Below are positions 2,169 to 21,288 of a stretch of DNA of 64,000 nt, in pieces (the first letter of the stretch is position 1; each line of letters opens with the position of its first letter). Made by a program: the position numbers and the translations under genes. Under the pieces are notes generated by a model. It was not told the DNA's origin. It ran no database searches and saw only the letters and a list, made by a program, of their open reading frames with translations. This stretch comes from Pseudomonadota bacterium (GTDB lineage Bacteria; Pseudomonadota; Gammaproteobacteria; Acidiferrobacterales; Acidiferrobacteraceae): NCBI GenBank assembly GCA_021795715.1, contig JAJYPD010000006.1:1-64000 (forward strand), given 5' to 3'.

Positions 2169-2208
2169 GCCACTCAGACCTTTACCTGGCGCGCGCCATT
2201 CAGTAGCA

Positions 2209-2217
2209 TGCTAAGAT
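2209..2217 (+). promoter_or_regulatory. Possible extended -10 promoter for the hopanoid locus
   Basis: TG at 2209-2210, one base, then TAAGAT at 2212-2217 forms an extended -10 element 70 bases before the ispH ATG. No good -35 hexamer sits at 16-18 bases upstream (the region is GCGCGC). The position fits the start of the long plus-strand hopanoid run, but the match is modest. Confidence 0.3.
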
Positions 2218-2287
2218 TCGCCGCCGATCCGCAATCTTTCGGGTGGCTCTGCCTGGGCATCGTGTCGAGGGAAGGAACACAGCGCAT

Positions 2288-4402: not shown

Positions 4403-4412
4403 CGGGTTTGTG

Positions 4413-5522
4413 ATGGTCATCGCGGCAGCCGTGGCCGCTTTGCTGTGGTTTGCGGTGCTGATCGTGCCCTGGCAACCGTGGCGCATGAGCGAGCGGTTGC
4501 CGCAAGGCGCCGCCACCGTCCCCGACGGCGCCGTGACCGTGCTGATACCGGCGCGCAACGAAGCGGGTGTGATCGGGCGCAGTCTGGCGGCCCTGAAGCA
4601 TCAAGGGGGGGCGCTGCGGGTGATCCTGGTCGACGATGCGTCGACAGACGGCACCGCCGCGGCCGCGCAAGCGGCCGGTCTGGCCGGCCTCGTCGTGATC
4701 GCCAGTGCGCCTTTGCCGGCGGGGTGGACGGGCAAGCTCTGGGCGCTCGAGCAGGGGCGCGCACAGATTCAGACCCCCTATACGCTTCTCCTCGACGCCG
4801 ATATCGAACTCAAGGCGGGTCTTGTCGGCGCGCTGCTCGCCTGGGCCCGCGCGGAGGATCTGACGCTCGTGTCGCTGATGGCGGCGCCTGCCATGCGCGG
4901 CTTCTGGGACCGGTGGTTCATGCCGGCCTTCGTCTATTTCTTCAAGCTTCTCTATCCGTTCCGGCTGGCCAACCGGCGTTCTTCCCGGGTGGCGGCGGCG
5001 GCCGGCGGCTGTGTACTGGTAAAGACCCAGGCGCTGGCGGATCTGGGTGGATTCGGGGTGCTGCGCGGGGCTGTCATCGACGACTGCACGCTCGCCCGGC
5101 ACATCAAGCGCGCCGGCGGCGGCACCTGGATCGGTGTGACCCGCGACGCGGTCATGTTGCGCGCCAACACCGTAAAGAGCCTGTGGATGATGGTGGCGCG
5201 CACGGCCTTCGCGCAGCTTGGTTACTCATACGGCCTGCTGGCGGTCTGTACCCTGGTGATGCTGGTGGTATTCGCGGTGCCGCTTGGCGGACTCGTCGCG
5301 GGCGGCAGCGGCGCGCGCGGGTGGAGCGCCGGGGCGGTCTTGCTCATGGCGCTTGGTTACATGCCGACTGTGCGTTTCTATGGGCAGAGGAGTTGGGTGG
5401 CCTTCACCTTGCCCATCATTGGTCTGGCCTTTCTGGCTATGACCTATACTTCGGCCCTGTGGTATGCTCGCGGCGTGCGCACGCAGTGGAAGGGTCGCGC
5501 CTACGCGCGCAGAAATGTCTAA
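4413..5522 (+). CDS. hpnB: Hopene-associated glycosyltransferase HpnB
   Basis: This is a GT2-fold membrane glycosyltransferase of 369 residues. It has an N-terminal hydrophobic segment (residues 1-20), the nucleotide-binding VLIPARNEAG and LVDDASTDGT stretches, LLLDADIEL as the metal-binding DXD region, FWDRWFMPAF and AAAAGGCVLVK, and three C-terminal membrane segments. The FWDRW...AAAAGGC pattern is characteristic of HpnB. The sugar and acceptor of HpnB are not established; the name reflects its constant association with hopanoid genes. A GTG at 4410 directly precedes the ATG at 4413 and is an alternative start. It sits tightly between hpnH and hpnM. Confidence 0.9.
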   Translation: MVIAAAVAALLWFAVLIVPWQPWRMSERLPQGAATVPDGAVTVLIPARNEAGVIGRSLAALKHQGGALRVILVDDASTDGTAAAAQAAGLAGLVVIASAPLPAGWTGKLWALEQGRAQIQTPYTLLLDADIELKAGLVGALLAWARAEDLTLVSLMAAPAMRGFWDRWFMPAFVYFFKLLYPFRLANRRSSRVAAAAGGCVLVKTQALADLGGFGVLRGAVIDDCTLARHIKRAGGGTWIGVTRDAVMLRANTVKSLWMMVARTAFAQLGYSYGLLAVCTLVMLVVFAVPLGGLVAGGSGARGWSAGAVLLMALGYMPTVRFYGQRSWVAFTLPIIGLAFLAMTYTSALWYARGVRTQWKGRAYARRNV

Positions 5523-5618
5523 TCACGGCTAAAAGGCCCGTCATCATAAAATATGCCGCGCCTGCGCGCAGGAACGTCGGGGCGTGCGGCGTCGCGCGGG
5601 CACAACAAGGAGATACGC

Positions 5619-6257
5619 ATGGAGTGGTCGCGAAAGGCGGGGTGGACGGTGGTCCTGGCAGGCATGCTGGCCATGGTATCGATCGGGATCGCGGTTGCAC
5701 AGACCCAGGCGGCGCCCGCGGTGACCGTCATCACGAAGTTCCAGGGCACGCTTTTGTCGGTCATGAAAAACGCCAAGACCCTGGGATTTCCGGGGCGTTA
5801 TCGGGAGCTCACGCCGGCGGTGCGCAAGAGTCACAATCTGGCCTTCATCGCGGAGGTGACGCTCGGTCCCTACTGGACCGGACTGACCGCCGCCCAGCGC
5901 GCGCAATTCCAGAAGACATTCACCCGCTTGACCATCGCCACCTACGCCGCGGAATTTGACGGCTACGCGGCCGGCCAGGCGTTTCATGTCACCGGGTCGC
6001 GCGTTTTGGGTAATGGCGATGTGATCGTGGCCACGGAGCTCGTGTCGGCCAAGGGGCGGCAGGCCCGCCTCGATTATCTGCTGGCGCCGTCGCATGGCAA
6101 CTGGCAGATCGTCAATATCGTCGCCAACGGGGTGAGCGATCTCGCCCTCAAGCGCGCGCAGTATACGGCCATCATGCGCGCTCAGGGCTTTCCCGTATTG
6201 CTGAAAAAACTGCGCGCCAAGGTGGCGCGGCTCATGGCTTTGCACAAGGCTGCCTAG
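5619..6257 (+). CDS. hpnM: HpnM, MlaC-like periplasmic lipid-binding protein
   Basis: HpnM belongs to the MlaC/Ttg2D superfamily of periplasmic lipid carriers. The 212-residue product has a signal peptide (residues 1-28, ending in AVAQ), then the family body with RYRELTP, NLAFIAEVTLGPYW, FTRLTIATYAAEFDGY and a DYLLAPSHGNWQIVNIVANGVSDLALKR-type core typical of the fold. An AAGGAGA at 5607-5613 sets the ATG at 5619. By family logic it would carry a hopanoid or phospholipid between membranes. The MlaA-like gene follows after 36 bases, and hpnN, encoding an RND transporter, lies in the same operon, so the three may form a transport route. Confidence 0.9.
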   Translation: MEWSRKAGWTVVLAGMLAMVSIGIAVAQTQAAPAVTVITKFQGTLLSVMKNAKTLGFPGRYRELTPAVRKSHNLAFIAEVTLGPYWTGLTAAQRAQFQKTFTRLTIATYAAEFDGYAAGQAFHVTGSRVLGNGDVIVATELVSAKGRQARLDYLLAPSHGNWQIVNIVANGVSDLALKRAQYTAIMRAQGFPVLLKKLRAKVARLMALHKAA

Positions 6258-6293: not shown

Positions 6294-7133
6294 GTGCCTA
6301 GAGGTGGGTTGTGGGTCATGGCCGGACTGATGATCCTGGTGTTGTCCGGATGTGCGACCATGACCGGCCGGCCGGCAGGCGGCGTGGATGATCCCTTGGA
6401 ACCGATGAACCGGGCTTTCTATCACTTCAACAGCGAGGCCGACCGGTGGGTGATGACACCGGTGTCCAACGCGTATGTGGCGGTCACGCCAAAGCCGGTG
6501 CGCGGCTCGCTCACCAACTTCTTCGACAACGTCAGTTACCCGAACGTCATCGTGAACGATTTCCTGCAGGGACGGGTCGTGCAAGGGGCAAGCGACATCG
6601 GCCGCTTCGTCGTCAACAGCACCCTTGGTATGCTTGGTTTTTTCGATGTCGCCGGACGTCTCGGACTGAAGGCGCATACGGAAGATGCCGGACTGACGCT
6701 TGCGCGCTGGGGCGTGCCGCGCGGACCCTATCTGGTACTGCCCTTCGTCGGACCCGATACGCTGCGCAATACACCGAGTATCGCATTCAGCATCTTTACG
6801 AACGTGCTCTATTACGTCGGCAATGCGGCCGTCACCGTGCCGCTTAGCATCATCAGCGTCATCAATACGCGAGCCAATGCGACCAACGAGATCGAGTACG
6901 TACGCCGCAACGCGGTCGATCCCTACATCTTTACACGCGATGCCTATCTCCAGCACCGCAACTACCTGATCCACGGCAAGCATCTGGGTCTTAATTCCGT
7001 GGAACAGCTGATGCTGCCGCCCGGCACGCCCGTGCCGACACCGGGAAAGCCGCGGGTCGACCCGCCTTTGAAGCTGCCGCGTCCATGGCCGAAGCGCGCG
7101 GCGATCCGGCGCCCGCCCGTACCGGCTGCCTGA
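6294..7133 (+). CDS. MlaA/VacJ-family outer-membrane lipoprotein
   Basis: MlaA proteins are outer-membrane lipoproteins that move phospholipids between the outer leaflet and the periplasmic carrier MlaC. The lipobox LSGC is at C20. The body holds DPLEPMNRAFYHFN, PVRGSLTNFFDNVSYPN, RFVVNSTLGMLGFFDVA and RGPYLVLPFVGP, all standard MlaA signatures. The C-terminal tail is proline- and arginine-rich. I use the GTG at 6294 because it gives a proper charged n-region; the ATG at 6318 would leave no positive charge before the hydrophobic core. No mlaBDEF genes are nearby; the partner is more likely HpnM, encoded next door. Its stop is 4 bases before hpnA. Confidence 0.9.
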   Translation: MPRGGLWVMAGLMILVLSGCATMTGRPAGGVDDPLEPMNRAFYHFNSEADRWVMTPVSNAYVAVTPKPVRGSLTNFFDNVSYPNVIVNDFLQGRVVQGASDIGRFVVNSTLGMLGFFDVAGRLGLKAHTEDAGLTLARWGVPRGPYLVLPFVGPDTLRNTPSIAFSIFTNVLYYVGNAAVTVPLSIISVINTRANATNEIEYVRRNAVDPYIFTRDAYLQHRNYLIHGKHLGLNSVEQLMLPPGTPVPTPGKPRVDPPLKLPRPWPKRAAIRRPPVPAA

Positions 7134-7137
7134 GCGC

Positions 7138-8124
7138 ATGGATATTCTTCTTACGGGTGGCAGCGGATTCGTCGGGTCGTCAGTGGCCCGGGCGCTGCTT
7201 GCGCGCGGACACCGGGTGCGCGCGCTGGTGCGCCCGCAGAGCGACCGCACCAATCTGGCCGATCTTCCCGTCGAATACGTGGTCGGTGACCTGACCGACG
7301 AGGCATCGCTCACCGAAGCGGCCGCCGGTTGCGCGGGTCTTTTCCATGTGGCCGCCGATTACCGGCTGTGGGCGCCGGATGCCGAAGCCATGTACCGCGC
7401 CAACGTCGAGGGCACGCGCACGCTCATGACCGCGGCGATGCGCGCGGGGGTGTCGCGGATCGTCTACACGAGCAGCGTCGCGGTGCTGGGGCTTGTGCGC
7501 GACGGTGTCGCCGATGAAGAGACACCGGTGACCCTGGCGGACATGATCGGGCCCTACAAACGCTCGAAATATTTGGCCGAGGAGGCCGTCAGGGCGCTGA
7601 TCGCAGAGGGGCTTCCGGCGGTCATCGTCAATCCGTCGACACCGGTCGGGCCGCGCGATATCAAGCCTACGCCCACCGGGCGGATCATCCGCGACGCGGC
7701 CTGCGGGCGCATTCCCGCCTATGTCGATACCGGCCTCAATGTCGTGCATGTCGATGACGTCGCCGAAGGCCATTGTCTGGCCTTTGAGCGCGGTACCATC
7801 GGCGAGCGCTACGTGCTGGGCGGCGAGAATCTGCCGCTGCGCGACATGCTGGCGGCGATCGCGGGGCTAACCGGCCGCCGGCCGCCCAAGCTGCGCCTGT
7901 CGCCGCATCTGCTCTGGCCGGTGGCGTGGATTGCCGAAGGCGTGGTGCGATCGCGGGGACGGGGCGTGCCGCTTCTGACGGTAGACGAGCTGCGCATGGC
8001 ACAAAAACGCATGTTCTTTTCGTCGGCCAAGGCGCAGCAGGCGCTCGGCTACCGGGCGCGCCCGGCGTTCGAGGCGCTTGACGACGCGGTCCGCTGGTTT
8101 CGTGATCACGGCTATTTGCGGTGA
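7138..8124 (+). CDS. hpnA: Hopanoid-associated sugar epimerase HpnA
   Basis: HpnA is an extended short-chain dehydrogenase/reductase related to dihydroflavonol reductases and sugar epimerases. The Rossmann motif TGGSGFVG is at residues 6-13, and the catalytic tyrosine and lysine are Y140 and K144 (PYKRSK) with an upstream YTSSVAV serine strand. The length of 328 residues is normal. Its exact substrate is unproven; the family occurs almost only with hopanoid genes and is thought to act on the side chain or head group. It overlaps the hpnI start by one base (TGATG), which implies translational coupling. Confidence 0.93.
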   Translation: MDILLTGGSGFVGSSVARALLARGHRVRALVRPQSDRTNLADLPVEYVVGDLTDEASLTEAAAGCAGLFHVAADYRLWAPDAEAMYRANVEGTRTLMTAAMRAGVSRIVYTSSVAVLGLVRDGVADEETPVTLADMIGPYKRSKYLAEEAVRALIAEGLPAVIVNPSTPVGPRDIKPTPTGRIIRDAACGRIPAYVDTGLNVVHVDDVAEGHCLAFERGTIGERYVLGGENLPLRDMLAAIAGLTGRRPPKLRLSPHLLWPVAWIAEGVVRSRGRGVPLLTVDELRMAQKRMFFSSAKAQQALGYRARPAFEALDDAVRWFRDHGYLR

Positions 8125-9254
8125 TGGCGGCGTGGGTGCTTGCGTGGATTGGCGGGCTCCTGCTCGGGGGCGCGCTGACGGTCCTCGCCGCAGATCTCGT
8201 CGCCGTACGGGTCTGGCGGGTGGCGCCATCTGTCTTGGAATCCGGGCCGCCGGTGTCGATCCTAAAGCCCCTCTACGGCCTGGAGCCGGATCTGTACGAG
8301 ATCCTGCGCACGTTTTGTGTGCAGGACTATCCCTGTTATGAGGTCGTGTTTGGCATCCAGGATGCCAAAGATCCGGCGGGCGCCGTCGTGCGGCGCCTGC
8401 AGGCCGAATTTCCGGACAGGGATCTCGTTTTGGTCGTCAATGACCGGCTGATCGGCAGCAACCGGAAGGTTTGCAACCTCGCGAACATTCTTGAGCGGGC
8501 CCGCTACGGCCGCCTGGTGCTGGCGGACGCGGACATCTCGGTCGGCCCCGACTATGTGCGCACGGTGGCCGCGCCGTTGGCCGACGCGGGTGTCGGCATC
8601 GTCACCTGTCTGTACCGCGGTAACGCGCACGGAGGTGTCTGGTCGCGCCTGGGGTCACTTTTTATCCAGGACTGGTTTGTCCCCTCGGTGCTGCTCGCGC
8701 GGCTCCTTGGCCAGAGCGGGTTCGCCTTCGGCGCGACCATCGCCTTGCGCCGGGAGACCCTGGCGGCCATTGGCGGTTTCGAGGCGTTTGCCTCGCATCT
8801 GGCGGACGACTATGAAATTGGGGCACGCACGCGTGCGCTCGGCCTGCGCACGGTGCTGTCGCCTTATGTGGTGACGACCGCCGTGGCGGAGCCGACGTTC
8901 GCCGATCTCTGGGCCCATCAGTTGCGGTGGTTGCGCACCATCCGCCTCGTCAACCCCGCAGGCTACGCCGCGTCGGTGTTTTCGTTTGCGCTGCCGGTGG
9001 CCGCGATCGGTGGCGCCCTGGTCGGCAGCGCCTGGGCCTGGGCCTGTGTGTTTCTGGCGTTGGTGTTGCGCCTCATGTTACATTGGCGAGCCTGCAGGCG
9101 TCTTGGAGCGCACGCGCAGTGGGGTCTTTGGCCGGTGGCCGATCTTTTGCTGCTCGCGCTCTGGGTGGCGGGATTTCTAGGGCGGCGCGTACGGTGGCGC
9201 GACCAGCGGCTCGCCGTTGGCGCGAGTGGGAGCATAAAAGCGAGTAGGGAGTAG
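8124..9254 (+). CDS. hpnI: Hopanoid glycosyltransferase HpnI (GT21-like)
   Basis: HpnI transfers N-acetylglucosamine to bacteriohopanetetrol, the first step to the cyclitol ether head group. The 376-residue protein resembles ceramide glucosyltransferases. It has an N-terminal membrane anchor, PVSILKPLYGLEP, the D1-D2-D3 acid motifs (NDRLIGSN, LADADISVG, LADDYEIG) and the QLRWLR version of the (Q/R)xxRW motif, then C-terminal membrane segments. The ATG at 8124 overlaps the hpnA stop; a GTG lies immediately before it at 8121. hpnJ follows after 5 bases. Confidence 0.93.
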   Translation: MAAWVLAWIGGLLLGGALTVLAADLVAVRVWRVAPSVLESGPPVSILKPLYGLEPDLYEILRTFCVQDYPCYEVVFGIQDAKDPAGAVVRRLQAEFPDRDLVLVVNDRLIGSNRKVCNLANILERARYGRLVLADADISVGPDYVRTVAAPLADAGVGIVTCLYRGNAHGGVWSRLGSLFIQDWFVPSVLLARLLGQSGFAFGATIALRRETLAAIGGFEAFASHLADDYEIGARTRALGLRTVLSPYVVTTAVAEPTFADLWAHQLRWLRTIRLVNPAGYAASVFSFALPVAAIGGALVGSAWAWACVFLALVLRLMLHWRACRRLGAHAQWGLWPVADLLLLALWVAGFLGRRVRWRDQRLAVGASGSIKASRE

Positions 9255-9259
9255 CGTTC

Positions 9260-10684
9260 ATGATGAAAACCCTGTTTCTGCATCCTCCTTCTTTCGAAGG
9301 ATTCGATGGCGGCGCCGGATCTCGATACCAGGCCAAGCGGGAGATCAAATCCTTCTGGTATCCGACCTGGCTCGCACAGCCGGCGGCCCTCGTACCCGGC
9401 AGCAAGTTGATCGACGCGCCTGCCGCGGGCTTGAGCCTTGAGGACGTGCTGCCCACGGTCAAGGGCTACGAACTGGCCGTGCTGCACACCAGCACGCCGT
9501 CGTTTGCCTACGACGTCAAGGTGGCGGAAGCCTTGAAGCAGGCATACCCGCAGCTTGTGATCGGTTTCGTCGGCGCGAAAGTCGCGGTCGCGCCCGAAGA
9601 GTCCCTGCTGGCTTCACCGGCGATCGATTTCGTCGCCCGGGAAGACTTCGACTTCACGATCAAGGAGATCGCCGAGGGCCGGCCGTTTGCCTCGATCGAC
9701 GGTTTGACCTATCGCGGCGAGAAGGGTGAGGCCGTGAATACGCCGCACCGGTCGCCGATCGCCAACATGGACGACCTGCCGTTCGTCACGGAGGTCTACA
9801 AGCGCGATTTGCGTATCGAGGATTACTTCATCGGGTATCTGCAGCACCCGTATGTGTCGTTCTACACGGGCCGGGGCTGCAAGTCGCGCTGCACGTTCTG
9901 CCTGTGGCCGCAGACGGTCGGCGGGCATCGCTATCTGGTACGCAGCGCCGAGCATGTGGTCGAGGAGGTCAAGCTCATTCAGCGCTACTTCCCGCAGGTC
10001 AAGGAAGTCTTCTTCGACGACGACACGTTCACAGACAACATCCCGAGGGCGGAAGAGATTGCGCGCCAGCTTGGCAAGCTCGGCGTGACCTGGTCTTGCA
10101 ACGCCAAGGCGAACGTCCCCTACGACACCCTGAAAATCATGCGCGACAACGGCCTGCGGCTGTTGCTGGTGGGTTATGAGTCAGGCAACCAGAAGATCCT
10201 GAACAACGTAAAGAAGGGTCTGCGCGTCGACGTTGCCAAGCGCTTCGCCAAGGATTGCCACAAGCTCGGGGTTACCGTCCACGGGACGTTCATCCTGGGT
10301 CTGCCGGGCGAGACCCGCGAAACGATCGAAGAGACGATCCGTTTTGCGAAGGAAATCAATCCGCATACCATTCAGGTGTCGCTGGCCGCCCCCTATCCCG
10401 GTACGTTCCTGTACAACCAGGCCCTCGAGAACGGCTGGTTGCTGGCCGACGACACCACGCATCTTGTCAACGACCGCGGCGTGCAGACCAGCGCTTTGTC
10501 GTATCCGCACCTGAATCGCACGGAGATCTACGATTCGGTGGAAACCTTCTACAAGCAGTTCTATTTCCGTTCCGGCAAGGTCGCGGAGATGGTGGGCGAA
10601 ATGCTGCGCAGTCCGCAGATGATGCGGCGGCGCCTGCGGGAGGGCGTGGAATTCATGCGCTTTTTCAGGCAGCGGCAGGCTTGA
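9260..10684 (+). CDS. hpnJ: Hopanoid radical SAM protein HpnJ
   Basis: HpnJ is a B12-binding-type radical SAM enzyme that contracts the sugar ring of the glucosaminyl hopanoid to the cyclitol ether. The N-terminal third (residues 1-150) is a cobalamin-binding-like domain with HPPSFEGFDGGAGSRYQ. The cluster cysteines are C207, C211 and C214 (CKSRCTFC), followed by FFDDDTFTDN and ILGLPGET. The 474-residue length is usual. GGGAG at 9247-9251 is the ribosome binding site. The stop codon overlaps the TTG start of hpnK. Confidence 0.95.
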   Translation: MMKTLFLHPPSFEGFDGGAGSRYQAKREIKSFWYPTWLAQPAALVPGSKLIDAPAAGLSLEDVLPTVKGYELAVLHTSTPSFAYDVKVAEALKQAYPQLVIGFVGAKVAVAPEESLLASPAIDFVAREDFDFTIKEIAEGRPFASIDGLTYRGEKGEAVNTPHRSPIANMDDLPFVTEVYKRDLRIEDYFIGYLQHPYVSFYTGRGCKSRCTFCLWPQTVGGHRYLVRSAEHVVEEVKLIQRYFPQVKEVFFDDDTFTDNIPRAEEIARQLGKLGVTWSCNAKANVPYDTLKIMRDNGLRLLLVGYESGNQKILNNVKKGLRVDVAKRFAKDCHKLGVTVHGTFILGLPGETRETIEETIRFAKEINPHTIQVSLAAPYPGTFLYNQALENGWLLADDTTHLVNDRGVQTSALSYPHLNRTEIYDSVETFYKQFYFRSGKVAEMVGEMLRSPQMMRRRLREGVEFMRFFRQRQA

Positions 10685-11508
10685 AAGCGGCCCGACGGGT
10701 CATTACGACCGCTGACGACTTCGGTCTCAGTGTCGCTGTCAATGAAGCCGTCGAACGGGCGGCGCGCGAGGGCGTGCTGACGGGCGCGAGCCTTATGGTT
10801 GGCGAGGCGGCGGCGGATGATGCCGTGCGGCGGGCGCGGCGGCTGCCGGACCTGCGTGTCGGATTGCATGTCGTGGTGGCGGAGGGTACGCCTGTGCTGG
10901 CGCCTGCACGGATTCCCGACCTGTGTGATGCACAGGGGCGGCTCGACGGCCGGCTCGTGCGGGCCGGATTCCGCTTTTTCTTCCGTCCGCGCGCGGCGGC
11001 GCAGCTGCGTGCGGAAATCGAGGCGCAGTTTGCCGCGTTCGCGGATACGGGCCTTAGGCTCGATCACGTCAATGCCCACAAGCACATGCATTTGCATCCC
11101 ACCGTCTTGAGTCTCATCATCGCCATCGGCAGACGCTACGGGATGCGGGCGGTGCGGTTGCCGTTCGAGCCGCGGGTGCTGGCCGGTCCGCTGCCTTTGC
11201 GCCAGAAACTGACGGGTGCGAGCGGGTCGGCGGTCATGGGGCCCTGGGTGGCGTTGATGCGCCGGCGGTTGCAGCGGGCGGGTTTGCGGCATAACGATTA
11301 TGTGTTCGGACTGCGCAAGTCCGGCGCGGTCGAAGAGGGGGAGGTCGTCGGCGCGATGACGCGATTGCCTGCCGGAATCAGCGAGGTCTATTTTCATCCC
11401 TCAACCGACCCGGCGGGCCGGGGCGAACTCGCCGCGCTGTTGAGCCCGCGGGTGCGTGCGGCCCTCGAGCAGGGCGGCGTGGAACGGGTGAGTTTTGGCG
11501 AACTCTAG
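10681..11508 (+). CDS. hpnK: Hopanoid deacetylase HpnK (YdjC/ChbG family)
   Basis: HpnK removes the acetyl group from the N-acetylglucosaminyl hopanoid made by HpnI. The 275-residue protein starts with the family signature TTADDFGLS (metal-binding aspartates), then GLHVVVAEGTPV, and the metal-binding histidines in HVNAHKHMHLHP. An EVYFHPSTD motif follows near the C-terminus. The start is a TTG at 10681 that overlaps the hpnJ stop in the arrangement TTGA; the homologous N-terminus begins right there and no ATG is available. Expression therefore seems coupled to hpnJ. Confidence 0.92.
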   Translation: MKAARRVITTADDFGLSVAVNEAVERAAREGVLTGASLMVGEAAADDAVRRARRLPDLRVGLHVVVAEGTPVLAPARIPDLCDAQGRLDGRLVRAGFRFFFRPRAAAQLRAEIEAQFAAFADTGLRLDHVNAHKHMHLHPTVLSLIIAIGRRYGMRAVRLPFEPRVLAGPLPLRQKLTGASGSAVMGPWVALMRRRLQRAGLRHNDYVFGLRKSGAVEEGEVVGAMTRLPAGISEVYFHPSTDPAGRGELAALLSPRVRAALEQGGVERVSFGEL

Positions 11509-11520
11509 GTAAGCGGGCCA

Positions 11521-14184
11521 GTGGTGTTCTCAAAGGATAAGCGGGGCGGTGGCGGGGTCGGGCGGGTCGACCGTTTTTATTTCGGTTTCTTGATCGGTCT
11601 TGCCGAGTACTCGAGGCGGCGCGCGTGGTGGGTGCTTCTCGCGGCGCTGGCAGTGAGCGGTCTTTCGCTCGCCTATACCATCACCCATTTCGCGATCAGT
11701 ACCAACACCGGCAAGATGCTGTCGGCTGATCTGCCATTCGAGCGTGCGCAAGGACGGTTCAACGCAGCCTTCCCGGGGCTCGACAAGACCTTGCTCGTGG
11801 TGGTGCGCAGTCCGTCACCGTCGCTTGCGCGGCAGAGCGCAGCCCGCCTTGCGGCATGGCTCAAGCGGCATGGCAAAGGCATCACCGGCCTCTATGAACC
11901 GGGTGCGGGCCCGTTCTTTGCCCGTGAGGGGCTGCTGTATCTGTCACCGAAGGCGTTGTGGACGCTGTCGGACCGCCTGTCGCGGGCCCAGCCGTTCATG
12001 GCGACGCTGGCGGCCCATCCCACTCTGCCGCAATTCAACGATCTTCTCATCAAGGCGCTGGCGGCCGACCGCACGCAGCGGCTGCCCGGCCTCGACCAGA
12101 TCCTCGCGGCCCTAAGCACCACCATCCAGGCGACCGGGCAAGGGCGGTTTGCGCTCATGCCTTGGGGTACCATCATGACGGGCAGTGTGCCGGTGGCAAC
12201 GGGCCATGCGGCGTTCCTCGAGGTCAAGCCGCGCTACGACTACAGCGGCGGGGCGCCGGTGCGGACGGCGCTTGCGAGCGTGCGGGAGGGCATCAAGGCG
12301 CTCGGGCTCACCGCGGCGCATGGCGTGCGCGTGCGCATCACGGGGGAAGCGGCCCTCGACAACGAGCAGGTGCAGACGGTTTCGCAGAGCGCGGGTCTGG
12401 CGACCACGCTGTCGTTTGGTTTGGTGCTCGTGTTTTTGCTGCTCGGACTGCGCAGTCCCGGTTTCGTCTTCGCCATCCTCCTGACGCTGTTTTGCGGACT
12501 CACCTGGACGGCGGCGTTTGCGTTGTTTGCGACAGGACCGCTTAATCTCATATCGGTCGCTTTTGCGGTCCTGTTCGTGGGGCTCGCCGTCGATTTCGGG
12601 ATCCAGTTTTCGTTCCGCTACCAGGAGGAACGGTTGAGTGCCGATCATGCCACCGCGCTCGGATCGACGGCGCGGCGCGTGGGCAATGCATTGAGTCTCG
12701 CCGCCGCGGCGGCGGCCATCAGCTTCTATTCGTTCGTACCGACGGACTACGCGGGCATCGTCGATCTGGGGATCATCTCGGGAACGAGCATGTTTTTTGC
12801 CCTGTTCGCCAATCTGAGTGTTTTGCCGGCGCTCCTTACCGTGCTCAATCCGCGATCGGCGGCGCAAGGGCCGAGCCCCTTGCGCGTGCTGCTTGCGCGC
12901 CTGCCGCTGCACCGCTATCCACGGGCGGTGATGGCCGCCGTCTGTGTGGTGATGGTGGCCTTGATTCCGGTGGTCTTGAGCGTGCACTTCGATTTCGATC
13001 CGATGCACCTGCAAAACAAGCGGAGCGAGGCGGTGCGCACGTTCGAGCAGCTGCTCAAGGAAGGCCGCATCTCGCCCTACCCGATCGACGTCCTGACTCC
13101 CAATCTGGCGGCGGCGCAGGCGCGCGCGGCACGGCTGCGCAAGCAGCCGACCGTGGGACGGGTGCTGACGCTGGCAAGCTATATTCCGAGCCACCAGAAC
13201 CAGAAGCTTGCGGTGCTTGCGCAGACGGCGCTGGTGGTGCCCCCCTTCGTGTTCGCCCCCGCGAACGCCCCGGAACCGACGACACGGGCCTTGCGTGTGT
13301 CGCTTGTGCGGCTGCAAGGGGCGCTTGCCACCTTCGCGCGCGGGGAGCCGGACCGGCGCCTCGCCGGTACGGCGCAGACGCTCACGCAAGCGATCGGCGA
13401 TTATGTTGCCCGCTTCGGCAAATCGCGCAAGGCGCTGATGACCCTGCAGCGGCGTATCATCGGCACGCTGCCCTGGCAATTGCGCGGACTGCAGACCGCC
13501 CTCAATGCGCGCCCCGTGACCGTCGCGACGCTGCCGGCCGATCTGCGCGATCGTTATGTAGCCGCCAACGGGGTGGCGCGTATCGAGGTGTTTTCATCGC
13601 TCAATCTGAATTCCAATGACAACATCCGCCGGTTCGTGCACAGCGTACAGAAGGTCGAGCCGGACGCGGTCGGGCCGCCTGTGCTGCTGGTCGAAGGCGG
13701 CGACGCGGTGGTGCAGGCGTTTCGCGAGGCGACCCTCATTTCGTTTGTGCTCATTACCGCGCTGCTGTTGCTGACCTTGCGCAGCTTGGCCGACGCGCTG
13801 ACCATTCTCATACCGTTGGGCATGGCGGCCATGGGGGCGGTGGCGGCCATGCGCATCGCCGGCATCTCGTTTAACCTGGCCAACATCATCGTCTTGCCGC
13901 TCTTGATCGGGTTGAGTGTCGCATTCAGCATCTATCTGGTCGTCCGCTGGCGCGCAGGCGTGCGGCCGTGGTTTCTGCTCGACACCAGCACGTCCGATGC
14001 GGTGGTGTTCAGCGCTTTGACAACGATGAGTTCCTTTGGCAGTCTTGCGGTCTCATCGAATCCCGGCATGGCCGTTTTAGGCGAGACGCTTTCTATTGCC
14101 ATGGCCAGCGCCCTGATCTCGATTCTGCTGGTGCTGCCGGCGCTCCTTGCGCTGCGCAAGCAGCCGGTCATCGACGGGACTTGA
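11521..14184 (+). CDS. hpnN: Hopanoid RND transporter HpnN
   Basis: HpnN is a monomeric-type RND (MmpL-like) permease required in other bacteria for moving hopanoids to the outer membrane. The 887-residue protein has TM1 near residues 38-58, a large periplasmic loop, a five-helix bundle around residues 297-450 containing AVLFVGLAVDFGIQFSFRYQEE (the proton-relay aspartate region), a second loop and a second five-helix bundle at the C-terminus. Two GTG codons are adjacent at 11521 and 11524, so the precise start is uncertain. The gene follows hpnK by 12 bases, in the same operon as hpnM and the mlaA-like gene. Confidence 0.93.
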   Translation: MVFSKDKRGGGGVGRVDRFYFGFLIGLAEYSRRRAWWVLLAALAVSGLSLAYTITHFAISTNTGKMLSADLPFERAQGRFNAAFPGLDKTLLVVVRSPSPSLARQSAARLAAWLKRHGKGITGLYEPGAGPFFAREGLLYLSPKALWTLSDRLSRAQPFMATLAAHPTLPQFNDLLIKALAADRTQRLPGLDQILAALSTTIQATGQGRFALMPWGTIMTGSVPVATGHAAFLEVKPRYDYSGGAPVRTALASVREGIKALGLTAAHGVRVRITGEAALDNEQVQTVSQSAGLATTLSFGLVLVFLLLGLRSPGFVFAILLTLFCGLTWTAAFALFATGPLNLISVAFAVLFVGLAVDFGIQFSFRYQEERLSADHATALGSTARRVGNALSLAAAAAAISFYSFVPTDYAGIVDLGIISGTSMFFALFANLSVLPALLTVLNPRSAAQGPSPLRVLLARLPLHRYPRAVMAAVCVVMVALIPVVLSVHFDFDPMHLQNKRSEAVRTFEQLLKEGRISPYPIDVLTPNLAAAQARAARLRKQPTVGRVLTLASYIPSHQNQKLAVLAQTALVVPPFVFAPANAPEPTTRALRVSLVRLQGALATFARGEPDRRLAGTAQTLTQAIGDYVARFGKSRKALMTLQRRIIGTLPWQLRGLQTALNARPVTVATLPADLRDRYVAANGVARIEVFSSLNLNSNDNIRRFVHSVQKVEPDAVGPPVLLVEGGDAVVQAFREATLISFVLITALLLLTLRSLADALTILIPLGMAAMGAVAAMRIAGISFNLANIIVLPLLIGLSVAFSIYLVVRWRAGVRPWFLLDTSTSDAVVFSALTTMSSFGSLAVSSNPGMAVLGETLSIAMASALISILLVLPALLALRKQPVIDGT

Positions 14185-14289
14185 CGGATGAACGGGCGCG
14201 TCACCGTCGGTGGGACCTGATACATGCAAGCAATCAAGACGCCAGACCACGAGGATGAACAAGACGCCCTCCCGCAGGGAGGCCGGCGC

Positions 14290-15297
14290 ATGCGTCCTGT
14301 GCTGACGGTTTTCGGCATCGGCGGACTTTTACTGACGGTTCATCTCATGTACGGGGCGTGGCCCGGTCTGACGGCGCTCGTGCACAGGGCCGGCATCGCG
14401 CTCGGTTGGGTCGTGCCGCTGCGCTTTGCCGCCCTCGGACTCGATGCGCGCGGCTGGTGGAGTCTGTTCCCGGAGCGGAGGGACGCGCCATCATGGTGGC
14501 GCTTGACGCTTCTTGCATTCGTTCGCGACGGCATCAACAATCTGTTGCCCGTCGTGCGTGTCGGCGGCGAGATGGTGGCGGTGCGCCTGCTCGGGCAAAG
14601 AGGGGTGCCGACGCCGCTTGCGGCGGCATCGATCGTCGTCGAGATCTCGGTCACGCTCGTTGTGCTGATCGTTCTCACATTCGCCGGTCTTGGCGCGCTG
14701 CTCGTGCGCATCGGGGCGGAACCGTTCGTCACGTCGATGCTGCTTGCCGCCATCCTCTCCGCGGTCATGGTGGGGGCGTTTCTGATGCTGCAGGTCCGTG
14801 TCGGGCTGGCCGGCGGCGTCGAACGGCTGCTTGCGCGCGTTTTGCGCCGCGAGGCGCGGACGCGGCCGGATGCGTTTGCGCATTTCGATCGCGATGTCCT
14901 TGCGATTTATGCGCGTTTCGGCGGTCTTTTGCGCTGCGCGGGTTGGCAGGTGATGGGGTTGGCCGGCGGCATGGCCGAAATGTGGTGGGTGCTGCGGCTT
15001 ATCCGGGTCCCGATCAGCATCGACGCGCTTTTCGTCCTCGAAAGCCTGATCCTGGCGCTGCAGAGCCTTTCCTTTGCGGTACCGGCGGCCCTTGGGGTGC
15101 AGGAGGGCGGATTCGTTCTCCTCGGATCGGCACTGGGACTTGGGCCGGATGTCTCACTGCTGCTCGCATTGGTGCGCCGTATGCGGCAGGTTGTGACCGG
15201 GTTGCCGGCTTTGGCCTTGTGGCGGTGGCAGGAGGCGCAGCCTGCGCGTCCGCAGGCCCTGGCGATGGCCGAGCCTGTGCCGCAACGGCGCGCCTAG
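14290..15297 (+). CDS. hpnL: HpnL membrane protein, first copy
   Basis: HpnL is a polytopic protein related to the flippase domain of lysyl-phosphatidylglycerol synthases and is found with hopanoid genes. The 335-residue product has about seven or eight membrane segments, the conserved FVRDGINNLLPVVRVGGE motif and the late PAALGVQEGGF motif. I use the ATG at 14290 because GGGAGG lies 7 bases upstream; an ATG at 14224 would add 22 charged, unconserved residues. A related copy lies at 19288-20322. A role in hopanoid translocation is inferred, not proven. Confidence 0.85.
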   Translation: MRPVLTVFGIGGLLLTVHLMYGAWPGLTALVHRAGIALGWVVPLRFAALGLDARGWWSLFPERRDAPSWWRLTLLAFVRDGINNLLPVVRVGGEMVAVRLLGQRGVPTPLAAASIVVEISVTLVVLIVLTFAGLGALLVRIGAEPFVTSMLLAAILSAVMVGAFLMLQVRVGLAGGVERLLARVLRREARTRPDAFAHFDRDVLAIYARFGGLLRCAGWQVMGLAGGMAEMWWVLRLIRVPISIDALFVLESLILALQSLSFAVPAALGVQEGGFVLLGSALGLGPDVSLLLALVRRMRQVVTGLPALALWRWQEAQPARPQALAMAEPVPQRRA

Positions 15298-15446: not shown

Positions 15447-16544
15447 GTGCCCGACCGTATGGCGACCCGTAATGCCATTATTCCGGCAGCCCACTCTGTG
15501 CATAGGGATGGTGGGCGGACGGAGAGCGACGAACAGTTCCAGGCGCGCATGCTGCGGTTTGTGTCGCGTACGTTCGCGCTGACGATACCGCAGCTGCCCG
15601 ATGCCCTGCGCGAGGCCGTGGGCAACGGTTACCTGTTGTGCCGGATCGTCGACACCATCGAGGATGACGCGGTGATGCCGGCGGCGCAGAAGCGGGTCTT
15701 CTGCGAGAAGTTTACGGCGGTGGTCGAGGGCCGTGCCGATGCGGCGCAGTTTGCCGCCGAGCTCGGCGCAGCGCTTGGGCCGGCGACGCCGCCGGCGGAA
15801 CGGGATCTCGTCTTGGATACGCCGCGCGTGATCGCCATCATGAACGGGTTCAGGCCGGCACAGCAGGAAGCGCTGCGCATCTGCGTGGCGGTGATGGCCG
15901 AAGGCATGGCCGCCTTCCAGGAACGCAAGGATCCCGCCGGGGTGCCGACCCTGGCGGACATGGATCGTTACTGCTATTACGTGGCCGGCGTGGTGGGTGA
16001 GATGCTGACCCGCCTTTTCTGTGACTATTCCACCGAGATCGCCCGCCGGCGCGAGGAATTGATGCCGCTTGCCGTGTCCTTCGGCCAGGCGTTGCAGATG
16101 ACCAACATTCTAAAGGACATCTGGGAGGATCGGGAGCGGGGTGCCTGCTGGTTGCCGCGGGACGTGTTTGCGTCCCACGGTTTCGATCTGCGCGACCTGT
16201 CGGCTGATCGCCAGCATCCCGGTTTCGAGCAGGGACTTGCCGATCTGATCGGTGTGGCGCACGGCCACGTGCGCAACGCCCTGCGCTATACGTTGTTGCT
16301 GCCACCCCACGAGACAGGCTTGCGCAACTTCTGTCTGTGGGCGCTTGGTATGGCGATTTTGACGCTGCGCAAGATCAACAAGAACCGCAGTTTTGTCAGC
16401 GGCCGGCAGGTCAAGATCACGCGCCGGAGCGTGAAGGCCACTATCGCCATCAGCCAATGGACGGTTCGGAACGATCGTCTTTTGTGGCTGCTGTTTCGCA
16501 TGATCGGCGCCGGTGTACCCAGCACCGCCGTGCAGATCGGTTGA
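15447..16544 (+). CDS. Squalene synthase (farnesyl-diphosphate farnesyltransferase type)
   Basis: This 365-residue trans-isoprenyl diphosphate synthase condenses two farnesyl diphosphates to squalene, the substrate of Shc. The two Asp-rich motifs are D69-T-I-E-D73 and D224-I-W-E-D228. SRTFALTIPQLPDALREAV, YCYYVAGVVGEMLTRLF and the following GQALQMTNILKD resemble the one-enzyme (ERG9-like) squalene synthases rather than the HpnC/HpnD pair, and no hpnC, hpnD or hpnE is visible in the window. The GTG at 15447 is placed by AAGGAGA a few bases upstream; an ATG at 15459 is the alternative. The phylogenetic type is inferred from motifs. Confidence 0.88.
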   Translation: MPDRMATRNAIIPAAHSVHRDGGRTESDEQFQARMLRFVSRTFALTIPQLPDALREAVGNGYLLCRIVDTIEDDAVMPAAQKRVFCEKFTAVVEGRADAAQFAAELGAALGPATPPAERDLVLDTPRVIAIMNGFRPAQQEALRICVAVMAEGMAAFQERKDPAGVPTLADMDRYCYYVAGVVGEMLTRLFCDYSTEIARRREELMPLAVSFGQALQMTNILKDIWEDRERGACWLPRDVFASHGFDLRDLSADRQHPGFEQGLADLIGVAHGHVRNALRYTLLLPPHETGLRNFCLWALGMAILTLRKINKNRSFVSGRQVKITRRSVKATIAISQWTVRNDRLLWLLFRMIGAGVPSTAVQIG

Positions 16545-16581
16545 TTCATCAGGCGGAGTTTTTTGCGAGGGACGGGGGGAT

Positions 16582-18531
16582 ATGAAAAGCCAGACGGTTC
16601 CTGTGAGGCGCTGGAACAGCCAGGGACAGCCGTCTTTGGACCGGCTCAAGGCCGGGCGCCTTGATGTCGCCATAGAGCGGGCGGAAAAGGCCCTGCTCGG
16701 GGAACAGGCTGCGGAAGGCTACTGGTGCTACGAGCTCGAAGCCGATTGCACGATACCTGCGGAATATATCCTGATGATGCATTTCCTCGATGACATCGAC
16801 GAGGAACTGCAGGCCAAGCTCGCGCGGCATCTGCGCGCCCACCAGGTGGCCGAAGGGGGCTGGGCCCTCTACTACGGTGGCGCTTTGGATATCAGCGGAT
16901 CGGTCAAGGCCTACTATGCCCTGAAACTGGCCGGCGACGACATCCACGCCCCGCACATGGTGATGGCGCGCGAAGCCATTCTCGCGCACGGCGGGGCGGC
17001 GCGCGCCAACGTGTTCACGCGCATCGCGCTTGCGCAATTTGGCCAGGTGCCGTGGCGGGCGATCCCGTTTCTGCCGGTGGAACTCGTGCTCGCGCCGAAC
17101 TGGTTTCCGATGAGCCTTGTGCGTGTATCGTACTGGTCACGCACGGTCATGGTGCCTTTGCTGGTCCTGTGCAGCCTGAAGATCCGCGCACGCAATCCGC
17201 GGCAGATCGGCATACGTGAGTTGTTCGTAAACGATCCGGAGAAGGAACGGCACTATTTCCCCATGCGTTCGGCCATGAACCGCATGCTGTTTTGGCTCGA
17301 GCGCATCGGTCAGCGCCTGGAGCCGCTGATTCCGCGGCGGCTGCGCGAGCGCGCGCTGGCAAAGGCCGAGCAGTGGATCATTGAGCGCCTAAACGGCCTG
17401 GGGGGGCTTGGCGCCATCTTTCCGGCGATGGTCAATGCCTACGAAGTCCTGCATGTGCGCGGCTACGGTCCGGAACATCCCTATCGCAAGACGGCGCAGG
17501 AAGCCCTGCAGAAGTTGCTGGTCATCAATGGCGAGTCGGCGTATTGCCAGCCTTGCGTATCGCCGATCTGGGATACGGGGCTTGCGTGTCTTGCCTTGCA
17601 GGCGGCCGATGCGCAGCGCCACAAGCAGGCCATCGACCGCGCCCTCATGTGGATGAAGGGCGAGCAACTGCTCGACCAGCCCGGTGACTGGCAGATCAAA
17701 AGGCCCAACCTGCGTGGCGGCGGGTGGCCGTTTCAGTTTCAAAATGGTCATTATCCCGACCTGGATGATACGAGCGTGGTCGCCTGGGCGATGTTCGAGG
17801 CCCAAGACCCGGCCTATGGGGAGGCCATCGACCGGGCTGGCGAATGGATCGCGGGCATGCAATCGCGCAACGGCGGATTCGCGGCATTCGACGTCGACAA
17901 TACCGATTACTACCTGAATGAAATCCCGTTTGCCGATCATGGCGCCTTGCTCGACCCGCCCACGAGCGACGTGACGGGCCGTTGCGTCTGCCTGCTGGCG
18001 CGTCTGGTGAAGAGCCATCCGGAGTATCAGGACGCACTCGACCGGGCACTTGCCTATCTGCGCAGGGAACAGGAGACGAACGGTTCCTGGTTCGGCCGCT
18101 GGGGCACCAACTACATCTACGGGACGTGGTCGGTGCTCGTCGGCTTGAAGGCCGCCGGTATCCCGGCGTCGGATGCGATGATCCGGCGCGCCGTGCACTG
18201 GCTGTACGCGGTGCAGCACGATGATGGGGGCTGGGGCGAGACCAATGACAGTTACCATGACGCGAGCCTGGCGGGCCAGGGTATCCCCAGCACACCGTTC
18301 CAGACCGCGTGGGCGCTGCTTGCGCTCATGGCGGCCGGCGAGACCGACAATGCGCAGATACAGCGCGGCGTGGAATATCTGCTGAACGCGCAACAGCATG
18401 ACGGCCTGTGGCGGGATGTGCACTATACGGCGCCGGGTTTCCCGCGCGTGTTCTATCTCAAATATCACGGCTATACCCGCTATTTCCCGCTGTGGGCGCT
18501 GGCGTGCTACCGGAACCAGCAGCCGGATTGA
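16582..18531 (+). CDS. shc: Squalene-hopene cyclase
   Basis: Shc (HpnF) cyclises squalene to hopene and diplopterol in the membrane. The 649-residue product shows the catalytic acid motif DLDDT (D393-D396), repeated QW-type motifs such as GGWPFQFQNG, NGGFAAFD, NGSWFGRWG and DGGWGETNDSY, and the conserved FLDDIDEE and YYGG-type N-terminal parts. The ATG at 16582 follows a GGGGGGA run and gives a standard length; an ATG at 16513 would add 23 residues from inside the preceding gene's end. The squalene synthase gene lies 37 bases upstream, so substrate and cyclase are made together. Confidence 0.97.
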   Translation: MKSQTVPVRRWNSQGQPSLDRLKAGRLDVAIERAEKALLGEQAAEGYWCYELEADCTIPAEYILMMHFLDDIDEELQAKLARHLRAHQVAEGGWALYYGGALDISGSVKAYYALKLAGDDIHAPHMVMAREAILAHGGAARANVFTRIALAQFGQVPWRAIPFLPVELVLAPNWFPMSLVRVSYWSRTVMVPLLVLCSLKIRARNPRQIGIRELFVNDPEKERHYFPMRSAMNRMLFWLERIGQRLEPLIPRRLRERALAKAEQWIIERLNGLGGLGAIFPAMVNAYEVLHVRGYGPEHPYRKTAQEALQKLLVINGESAYCQPCVSPIWDTGLACLALQAADAQRHKQAIDRALMWMKGEQLLDQPGDWQIKRPNLRGGGWPFQFQNGHYPDLDDTSVVAWAMFEAQDPAYGEAIDRAGEWIAGMQSRNGGFAAFDVDNTDYYLNEIPFADHGALLDPPTSDVTGRCVCLLARLVKSHPEYQDALDRALAYLRREQETNGSWFGRWGTNYIYGTWSVLVGLKAAGIPASDAMIRRAVHWLYAVQHDDGGWGETNDSYHDASLAGQGIPSTPFQTAWALLALMAAGETDNAQIQRGVEYLLNAQQHDGLWRDVHYTAPGFPRVFYLKYHGYTRYFPLWALACYRNQQPD

Positions 18532-19220
18532 ACGGCTGGGGTTTCCTGTGCGCGCTGCCGCGGGAATGCGCGACGCTGACGGGTGTGACGCGCCCGGTCG
18601 GCGCCTCATGGGTTTTTGCGGCCGACATGCGCGTGGCGGTCACGGGTATGGGCGCCGCGGCGGCGGCCGCGGGCGCGCAGCGCCTCGTCGACGAGGGCGC
18701 TCGCGGTCTGGTGAGCTGGGGCACCTGTGGAGGGCTGGACCCGCAGCGGCAACCGGGGGACGTGATCATCGCCACGTCCGTGACCGATGCCACCGGCCGC
18801 CACTATCCCGTCGATGAACCTTCAAGCCGGCGTGTGCAGGAGCGTGCGGCCGTGTGCGTGGCGCGCGGCGCGCTGGTGACGGCGGGGGCCGTGGTGGCCG
18901 GCGTGGATGCCAAGCGGATGCTGCGCGCGCGCTCGGGGGCCTGCGCGGTGGATATGGAAAGCGCGGCGATTGCCGCGGTGGCGGCGCGCTCTGGACGTCC
19001 GTTCATGGCGATCCGTGCGGTGGTGGATGCCGCGCAGGCGGCGTTGCCGCGCGCGGTCACGGCGGCGGTGCAGGCCGACGGGGATCTCGCATGGGCGGTG
19101 TTTTTCCGTCAGCTCGGCTGGTCATGGCGCGCATGGCGCGAGGTGGCGGTGCTGATGCGGTCTGCACACAAGGCCGAGCGCGCCCTGAGGGTGCTTGCGC
19201 GTGACCTGGCCTTGCTTTGA
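18528..19220 (+). CDS. hpnG: Adenosylhopane nucleoside phosphorylase HpnG
   Basis: HpnG removes adenine from adenosylhopane to give (phospho)ribosylhopane, the step after HpnH. The 230-residue protein is of the purine nucleoside phosphorylase/nucleosidase fold, with VAVTGMGAAAAAAGAQRL, SWGTCGGLDP, GDVIIATSVTD and the nucleoside-binding AVDMESAAIAAVAA motif. The start is a TTG at 18528 overlapping the shc stop (TTGA); homologous sequence (FLCALPRECATL) begins 6 codons later and no ATG is available. This is the same start arrangement as in hpnK. The next gene, the second hpnL copy, may have its own promoter. Confidence 0.92.
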   Translation: MNGWGFLCALPRECATLTGVTRPVGASWVFAADMRVAVTGMGAAAAAAGAQRLVDEGARGLVSWGTCGGLDPQRQPGDVIIATSVTDATGRHYPVDEPSSRRVQERAAVCVARGALVTAGAVVAGVDAKRMLRARSGACAVDMESAAIAAVAARSGRPFMAIRAVVDAAQAALPRAVTAAVQADGDLAWAVFFRQLGWSWRAWREVAVLMRSAHKAERALRVLARDLALL

Positions 19221-19287: not shown

Positions 19288-20322
19288 ATGGCAAAGTCCA
19301 TCCCTATGACGCGACAGCGGTTGCTCTATATGCTGACCATGGCTGCCGGTCTCGGGGGACTGGGCGGGGCCGTCGCGCTCATCGCGCAAAGCGGTTTTCA
19401 CCGGGTGTTTTCGCTGCTGGCCGCCGTGCGGTGGGGATTTTTGTGGCTGATCCCGGTGCGTCTTGCGGTCGTCAGCCTGAACGCGCAGGCCTGGCGCGCT
19501 CTGCTGCGCGCGTGGCGGCGCCTGCCGCTTGCATTCCTTGTGTGGGTGGCGCTCGTGCGCGACGCCATCAACAATCTGCTGCCGGTGTTCCGGGTGGGCG
19601 GTGACGCCGCCGGGTTGCGGCTGCTTGTGCGCCGGGGTCTGGCCGGGGCGCCGGCCATGGCGACCATCGTGGTCGAAACCACGACGACGATTTTCGTGCA
19701 GATTCTGTTTTCCTTGCTGGGCGTGGGGTTATTGCTGTCGTACGTTCACCATGGACACGTGGTGTCGGACGTGGCCTATGGCATCGGCGTGGCTGCCATC
19801 GTCGCCGTCGTGTTTCTGGTCGTGCAGACGCGCGGCCGCCTGTTTGCGCGCGCCGAAAAGGTCTTCATGTGGCTGAGCGGGCGCGGCTTTGCGGGGGGCA
19901 CGGAAGGCGGGACCATCGATCAGTCCATCCGGGAGCTCTACCAGCGGCCGCGGTTGATCGCGCGCTGCGGCCTGTGGCAGCTGGCGAGCCTCCTTGGGGG
20001 CGCGTGCGAGGTGTGGGTGATCTTCCGCATTCTGGGGGTGACGGTCAGCCCGCGCCTTGCGGTGCTCTTCGAGAGCATGATCCAGGGCCTGCAGAGCGCG
20101 GCCTTCATTGTGCCCGGCGCGCTCGGTGTCCAGGAGGGGGGCCTGGTGGCCGTGGGCATCCTGGCGGGCGTGCCCATGGATATGGCGCTGGCGGTGTCGC
20201 TTACCCGGCGTCTGCGCCAGATCGCCTTCGGCGTCCCCGTGCTCGGCTGGTGGATGCGCAGCGAGCGCCGGTCGCGGCGGGCGCGAAACCTCCAAGCGCA
20301 TGCGGAAGCGGAATCCGCCTGA
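19288..20322 (+). CDS. HpnL-like membrane protein, second copy
   Basis: This 344-residue polytopic protein shares with the product at 14290-15297 the LVRDAINNLLPVFRVGGD motif, the IVVETTTTIF segment and the FIVPGALGVQEGG motif, so the two are paralogues of the HpnL/flippase-like family. Sequence between these motifs has diverged widely, suggesting an old duplication or separate acquisition. It has about eight membrane segments and a basic tail. Two copies in one hopanoid locus may handle different hopanoid forms or different membranes. It is followed by a sulfotransferase gene after 39 bases. Confidence 0.85.
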   Translation: MAKSIPMTRQRLLYMLTMAAGLGGLGGAVALIAQSGFHRVFSLLAAVRWGFLWLIPVRLAVVSLNAQAWRALLRAWRRLPLAFLVWVALVRDAINNLLPVFRVGGDAAGLRLLVRRGLAGAPAMATIVVETTTTIFVQILFSLLGVGLLLSYVHHGHVVSDVAYGIGVAAIVAVVFLVVQTRGRLFARAEKVFMWLSGRGFAGGTEGGTIDQSIRELYQRPRLIARCGLWQLASLLGGACEVWVIFRILGVTVSPRLAVLFESMIQGLQSAAFIVPGALGVQEGGLVAVGILAGVPMDMALAVSLTRRLRQIAFGVPVLGWWMRSERRSRRARNLQAHAEAESA

Positions 20323-20361
20323 TAAATCCAATCAATAAGAAATCGTCAATCGGGGAGGGGT

Positions 20362-21288
20362 ATGGTGACAGGCTGGGCTTGGCCGAATCTCTATATCGTG
20401 GGGGCCGTCAAAAGCGGCACGACATCCTTGTATGCCTATCTCGGCCAGCATCCGGAGATCTTTTTCCCGGACATGAAGGAGCCGCACTTCTTTTCGCGGC
20501 CGCGGCCCTCGGCAGAACAGGCGCATCTCATCACCTATGTGAAGGACGAGGCCGAGTATCAGTGGCTCTACGCCAAAGGCGAGGGTTACGCCTGGCGTGG
20601 CGATGCCAGCCCGTCCTATCTGTGGGCGCCTGAGGCGCCGGCGCGAATCCACGATGTCTCACCGGCGGCCCGTATTCTCATCATCCTGCGCGATCCGGTG
20701 GAACGGGCCTACGCGCAGTATCTGATGGATTATTCGGAGGGGGCCATCAAGGAGCCGTTTTTCGAAGCGCTGCAGCGCGATTGGCTGCGTCCCGACAAAG
20801 GTTGGGGTGTGTCGCAGTTGTACGTGGAGCTTGGCCAGTATACGGAACAGATCCGCCGTTACCGGCGGACATTCGGGATGGATCAGGTTCTCGTTTTGCT
20901 CCTTGAGGATCTGAAGAAGGATCCACGCGGCACGTTGCGCACCATCGGGCGCTTTCTGGGGGTGGCCTCAGGACCGATGAATGCCATCGACACCGACACC
21001 GCGCACAACCACTACCGCCAGCCCAAGGGAGAATGGGCGCGCCGTCTGGCCGGCAGCCCCATCAGCCGCTTTCTCGGCGAACACGTCGTGCCGCGCCGCC
21101 TGGGCGAATATGTGTGGGAGCGGTGGATGCAGAAGGAGGCCCCCAAGCCGGCAATGGATCCGCGCGGGCGTGATTATCTGGCGGCACTTTATACCCCCGA
21201 GCTGGCCGCGCTCGAGGCCGAACTGGGCCGCGCGCTGCCGGAACTGCGCAGGGTCTGGTCGCCCGTGTCCATGGTGGCCACCGGCTGA
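20362..21288 (+). CDS. PAPS-dependent sulfotransferase, hopanoid-locus associated
   Basis: The 308-residue protein carries both PAPS-binding elements of the sulfotransferase fold: the 5'-phosphosulfate loop VGAVKSGTTSLYAYL (about residues 12-26) and the 3'-phosphate motif ILRDPVERAYAQY (about residues 110-122), plus QLYVELGQYTEQI and HNHYRQ. It lacks a signal peptide or membrane segment and would act in the cytoplasm. A GGGGAGGGG precedes the ATG. The closest relatives by motif act on sugars or lipids. Because the gene ends the hopanoid run on the same strand, a sulfated hopanoid or other sulfated envelope lipid is a reasonable but unproven product. Confidence 0.85.
   Translation: MVTGWAWPNLYIVGAVKSGTTSLYAYLGQHPEIFFPDMKEPHFFSRPRPSAEQAHLITYVKDEAEYQWLYAKGEGYAWRGDASPSYLWAPEAPARIHDVSPAARILIILRDPVERAYAQYLMDYSEGAIKEPFFEALQRDWLRPDKGWGVSQLYVELGQYTEQIRRYRRTFGMDQVLVLLLEDLKKDPRGTLRTIGRFLGVASGPMNAIDTDTAHNHYRQPKGEWARRLAGSPISRFLGEHVVPRRLGEYVWERWMQKEAPKPAMDPRGRDYLAALYTPELAALEAELGRALPELRRVWSPVSMVATG

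Follow-up and report, generated by a model that had tools for sequence, protein, structure and literature searches.

A predicted sulfotransferase gene at the end of the Acidiferrobacteraceae hopanoid locus, and the possibility of sulfated hopanoids in extreme acidophiles

Hopanoids are the main bacterial counterparts of sterols and key geological biomarkers. In a 2025 survey of Alphaproteobacteria, 63 compounds fell into five BHP types (nucleoside, BHT-type, cyclitol ether, carbamoyl and amino), none of which is sulfated (PMC12583986). HpnI adds GlcNAc to BHT, HpnK deacetylates it, and HpnJ forms the cyclitol ether; no function is established for HpnL (PMC12583986). No report of a sulfated hopanoid was found in the literature that we searched, in which few subscription papers were within reach.

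Here we describe a predicted PAPS-dependent sulfotransferase gene (SULT hereafter; 20362..21288, + strand) that closes a hopanoid gene cluster in a 64,000-nucleotide stretch of DNA from Acidiferrobacteraceae (the window), and weigh what its product may act on. Of the explanations considered, sulfation of a hopanoid accounts best for the evidence, and we give it an even chance.

The hopanoid locus and its last gene

The cluster lies entirely on the + strand of the window and reads hpnH-B-M-mlaA-hpnA-I-J-K-N-L1-sqs-shc-hpnG-hpnL2-SULT, with SULT last. It begins with hpnH, for adenosyl-hopene transferase (3284..4402; TIGR03470, 557 bits), followed by hpnB (4410..5522; TIGR03469, 339 bits, just under the cut-off of 379), the MlaC-like hpnM (5553..6257; TIGR03481, 209 bits), an mlaA/vacJ-like lipoprotein gene (6294..7133; PF04333) and hpnA (7138..8124; TIGR03466, 499.6 bits). 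Then come hpnI, for the glycosyltransferase that puts GlcNAc onto BHT (8121..9254; TIGR03472, 450.5 bits), hpnJ, for the radical SAM protein of cyclitol ether formation (9260..10684; TIGR03471, 819 bits; function from PMC12583986), hpnK, for the deacetylase acting on BHT N-acetylglucosamine (10702..11508; TIGR03473, 352 bits; function from PMC12583986), and the hopanoid transporter gene hpnN (11521..14184; TIGR03480, 903 bits). The remainder comprises hpnL1 (14224..15297; TIGR03476, 226.2 bits, cut-off 195.65), a squalene-synthase-like gene (sqs, 15447..16544; PF00494; TIGR01559 at 137 bits, under cut-off), the squalene-hopene cyclase gene (shc/hpnF, 16513..18531; TIGR01507, 836 bits), hpnG (18408..19220; TIGR03468, 166 bits, under the 187.1 cut-off), whose ORF start overlaps shc and whose real start is probably near 18530, and hpnL2, for a second HpnL-family membrane protein (19288..20322; TIGR03476, 275.7 bits, cut-off 195.65). 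A reading of this DNA made from the sequence alone had called the locus complete. This is accurate for hpnA, B, G, H, I, J, K, L, M and N and for shc, all of which are present, but squalene would be supplied by the one-step squalene-synthase-like gene in place of hpnCDE.

Between genus-mates, the two HpnL genes have diverged at very unequal rates: hpnL1 shows 63% identity and a dN/dS of 0.292, and hpnL2 82-83% identity and a dN/dS of 0.124. The SULT-linked hpnL2 is the slower-evolving and more constrained of the two. Genes for an Nramp metal transporter and IspH (LytB) immediately precede hpnH (window 891-3247) and are collinear in a second genus too, so that the conserved block starts upstream of the hopanoid genes. 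Past SULT, a 301-aa protein without a Pfam match (window 21570-22475), which by eye resembles membrane proteins of the multi-pass CtaA type, precedes a UbiA-type (heme O synthase-like) gene.

SULT itself starts with ATG, is preceded by the stretch GGGGAGGGG, and encodes 308 aa. The sequence-only reading had placed a PAPS-type sulfotransferase 39 bases past the second hpnL on the same strand, and both the ORF coordinates and the Pfam and HpnL matches agree with this; the gap (20323..20361, + strand) has no terminator-like site inside it. Two Pfam models match the product above their gathering scores, Sulfotransfer_3 (PF13469; 4.5e-18, 66.8 bits, cut-off 27) and Sulfotransfer_1 (PF00685; 1.2e-13, 51.5 bits, cut-off 22), and no NCBIfam model matches, which leaves the protein without a finer family name. 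Compared with a genus-mate (G001), the dN/dS of SULT is 0.054, below those of shc (0.075) and sqs (0.068), which marks it as a functional, constrained coding gene. The sequence has no apparent membrane segment, which suggests that SULT is a soluble protein that probably contacts its acceptor from the cytoplasm. PAPS supply in the cell is supported by an APS kinase encoded elsewhere in the same genome (G000, contig C20; TIGR00455, 172.9 bits, cut-off 138.7).

The expected active-site elements could be located by alignment, all on the + strand: a 5'-phosphosulfate binding loop at about residues 11-23 (GAVKSGTTSL; 20392..20430), a catalytic-type motif, MKEPHFF, containing E40 and H42 and aligned with EPHFF of human 3-OST (20473..20493), and a 3'-phosphate binding motif, RDPVERAYAQY (20689..20721). 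K17, G19, T20, E40 and R110 are invariant in an alignment of 42 homologues, and the Glu equivalent to E40 is the catalytic base in 3-OST. The earlier description of both binding motifs needs one correction, in that the 5' motif is canonical (K17), whereas the 3' motif keeps R110 but has Ala118 in place of the usual Ser. Ala118 is found in all Acidiferrobacteraceae orthologues and most of those from Acidithiobacillaceae, with Ser kept at this position in three of the 16 aligned Acidithiobacillaceae orthologues, in Acidithiobacillaceae paralogues and in all aligned distant homologues. The Ser of these three orthologues and of the paralogues marks Ala118 as a derived state, and we judge the change to be tolerable rather than inactivating. 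The paralogue in question is a second, divergent sulfotransferase (~45-51%) with the 3' Ser retained, present in several Acidithiobacillaceae genomes (e.g., G438 and G441).

A structural model of SULT (AlphaFold2 with the family alignment; pLDDT 90.9, pTM 0.89) best matched, among PDB entries, the bacterial sulfotransferase 3rnl (Z 30.2), the NDST1 sulfotransferase domain (Z 24.6) and 3-OST-3 (Z 24.1); PKS, steroid, tyrosyl and mycobacterial sulfotransferases followed at a distance, with Z no higher than 16. A fold held in common is no proof of substrate.

Distribution, gene order and origin

Orthologues of SULT occur in 17 of the 18 Acidiferrobacteraceae genomes, namely the window's own and 16 others (67-90% identity). 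Co-occurrence with hopanoid genes in relatives, on which the proposed link had been staked beforehand, is borne out within the family, SULT standing immediately after an hpnL in 17/17 carriers. The order hpnJ-K-N-L1-sqs-shc-hpnG-hpnL2-SULT is held wherever the Acidiferrobacteraceae contig is long enough, with an hpnL2-SULT gap of ~10-115 bases across the loci measured, depending on the choice of start. A complete genome from the second genus (G007) is collinear with the window from the Nramp gene and ispH via hpnH to SULT, and its 17 kb beyond SULT contain no match to any window gene. The representative of a third genus (G004) has shc and a single hpnL, and no SULT orthologue. By gene order and history, SULT is part of the family's hopanoid locus.

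Among 369 genomes spread over the class, Acidiferrobacteraceae and Acidithiobacillaceae alone yielded matches with more than 45% identity and E <=1e-30. In the latter, the SULT orthologue (51-62% identity) and SHC are each found in 28 of 29 genomes, and since both are near-universal, their co-occurrence there cannot separate the hypotheses. In the Acidithiobacillaceae genomes checked, SULT has a fixed dapD-dapE-rlpA-SULT setting far from the hpn genes, so that SULT-hpn linkage is not common to all carrier lineages. The dapD-dapE-rlpA run that ends in this SULT (L111-L124) constitutes a peptidoglycan-linked setting. Acidithiobacillaceae are reported to have acquired hopanoid synthesis (PMC8886135). 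Neither SULT nor SHC was detected in two good genomes from the other family of their order, which is presumably Thermithiobacillaceae, a neutrophilic family (PMC8886135).

The next best homologue reaches 42% identity, in a genome with SHC (G176), and weaker homologues are mostly from genomes without SHC. Overall, SULT orthologues were found only in two SHC-bearing families, the exceptions being two incomplete assemblies (G002, 80% complete; G477, 69% complete). A genome from another family of the window's order (G022) has sqs-shc-hpnG-hpnA, with no HpnL match and no SULT orthologue. As both G004 and G022 are hopanoid makers without the orthologue, SULT is no general hopanoid step.

Phylogenies add a history to this distribution. 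In the HpnL tree, L1 and L2 are sister groups limited to the two SULT-bearing genera (100/99), and the single HpnL of G004 and that of Acidithiobacillaceae fall outside them. L1 sits after hpnN, as in Acidithiobacillaceae, and hpnL2 and SULT make up a newly added module at the opposite end of the cluster. The SULT tree nests the Acidiferrobacteraceae clade inside Acidithiobacillaceae (joint group 99/96, nested position 94/93), whereas in the shc tree the Acidiferrobacteraceae sequences join that of G004, apart from Acidithiobacillaceae. These differing placements suggest an incoming gene that settled in an existing hopanoid operon: SULT was probably acquired by lateral transfer, and hpnL duplicated in the new host, with moderate tree support for the direction of transfer.

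Two other origins were considered and rejected. Arrival of the whole hpn cluster from Acidithiobacillaceae together with SULT is rejected for shc because of its grouping with G004, and the HpnL tree shows HpnL2 to be a duplicate from within the host family rather than a co-transferred Acidithiobacillus HpnL.

Candidate acceptors of the sulfuryl group

The gene, its predicted fold and motifs, the purifying selection on it, its fixed order and co-occurrence with hopanoid genes, and the APS kinase are directly supported; from these we infer an acceptor, a site of sulfation, a role for HpnL2 and a benefit at low pH. SULT would be a soluble PAPS-dependent enzyme catalysing a late tailoring step of hopanoid synthesis, in which PAPS would donate its sulfuryl group to the hopanoid's polar end, on the cytoplasmic side of the inner membrane. 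The likeliest acceptor would be one of the hydroxyls (or the amine) on the headgroup, glucosaminyl or amino-cyclitol, that HpnI, HpnK and HpnJ put on bacteriohopanetetrol, because the predicted fold belongs with those of NST and 3-OST, which act on glucosamine, and the E-P-H-F-F motif is of the 3-OST type. The sulfated product, a hopanoid whose headgroup would still be negatively charged at pH 1-2, may be handled by HpnL2, a flippase-like membrane protein that arose by duplication.

Nearly all SULT carriers are probably extreme acidophiles, and the ionisation of a sulfate ester at pH 1-2 is consistent with the confinement of SULT to such organisms. The proposal can be extended to both families, Acidiferrobacteraceae and Acidithiobacillaceae, whose extreme acidophiles would then make sulfated hopanoids; SULT would have crossed between the two and joined, within the hpn operon, a duplicated HpnL that handles the product. 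This broader version is more tentative, and we place it somewhat short of even. If true, a sulfated hopanoid would add a class of headgroup that extraction and derivatisation methods, designed for neutral and amino forms, have probably overlooked, and HpnL would be tied to a specific product. Because a sulfate ester is still charged at pH 1-2, whereas carboxylates and, in part, phosphates are protonated there, it offers a testable idea for how acidophiles maintain an anionic membrane surface.

The probable acidophily of nearly all carriers also means that lifestyle and hopanoid production are confounded, and confinement to acidophiles equally allows an envelope acceptor other than a hopanoid. 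SULT could sulfate some other envelope molecule that these acidophiles share, such as LPS core or O-antigen, a precursor of capsule or exopolysaccharide, or a phospho- or ornithine lipid; its site among the hpn genes would then reflect co-expression with acid-envelope functions. We regard this as a serious competitor, although distinctly less probable than hopanoid sulfation: it accommodates the near-universal Acidithiobacillaceae orthologues in their dapD-dapE-rlpA context and the tracking of acidophile lineages by a gene absent from two hopanoid makers in the order, and the best-matching solved enzymes of known substrate, which act on glycans, speak for it and against a hopanoid substrate. 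It sits less well with the locking of SULT to hpnL2 in Acidiferrobacteraceae and the break in gene order just past SULT, or with the loci read, in which no glycan-assembly genes adjoin SULT.

The association of SULT with hopanoid genes represents one or two independent events only, and a single insertion is all that would be required if SULT had landed by chance beside hpnL2 in the ancestor of the two genera and had no functional link with it. The upstream synteny, which includes an Nramp gene without known hopanoid role, would be compatible with such passive retention, yet the order has been held in 17 species down to ~67% protein identity while downstream genes were replaced, the hpnL2-SULT gap is short, and hpnL was duplicated in the same ancestor, all of which makes a chance neighbour improbable. 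Least credible is a product that has lost PAPS sulfotransferase activity with the 3' Ser and taken another role, since, for all that Ala118 is universal in Acidiferrobacteraceae and Ser in the aligned distant homologues, the clade keeps K17, G19, T20, E40, H42 and R110 without exception, three of 16 aligned Acidithiobacillaceae orthologues retain Ser, and an APS kinase is present.

Comparison with known sulfotransferases and hopanoid tailoring enzymes

Among solved structures, the closest counterpart of SULT is 3rnl, a sulfotransferase from Alicyclobacillus acidocaldarius, which is itself a thermoacidophile and a hopanoid maker. The two proteins are of similar length and share a whole-chain fold (Z 30.2, rmsd 1.9 A, 37% identity), but 3rnl has a KEAHFF motif and keeps the 3' Ser, and we found no substrate for it. 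Heparan 3-OST and the N-sulfotransferase domain of NDST1 resemble SULT in fold (Z 22-25) and in the Lys of the PAPS loop, 3-OST also in its E-P-H-F-F motif, and their substrate, glucosamine, is also part of BHT-glucosamine. These are, however, animal Golgi glycan enzymes with 22-27% identity to SULT, a soluble bacterial protein encoded beside lipid genes. The mycobacterial Stf1 and Stf9 are, like SULT, PAPS enzymes from bacteria and belong to its superfamily, but their structural match is much weaker (Z ~13); other mycobacterial Stf enzymes tailor lipids.

Set against the hopanoid pathway itself, SULT would join the tailoring genes hpnG, H, I, J, K, O, P and R, which likewise modify the side chain or ring and are mostly encoded in the cluster (PMC12583986), and would differ from every one of them in transferring sulfate.
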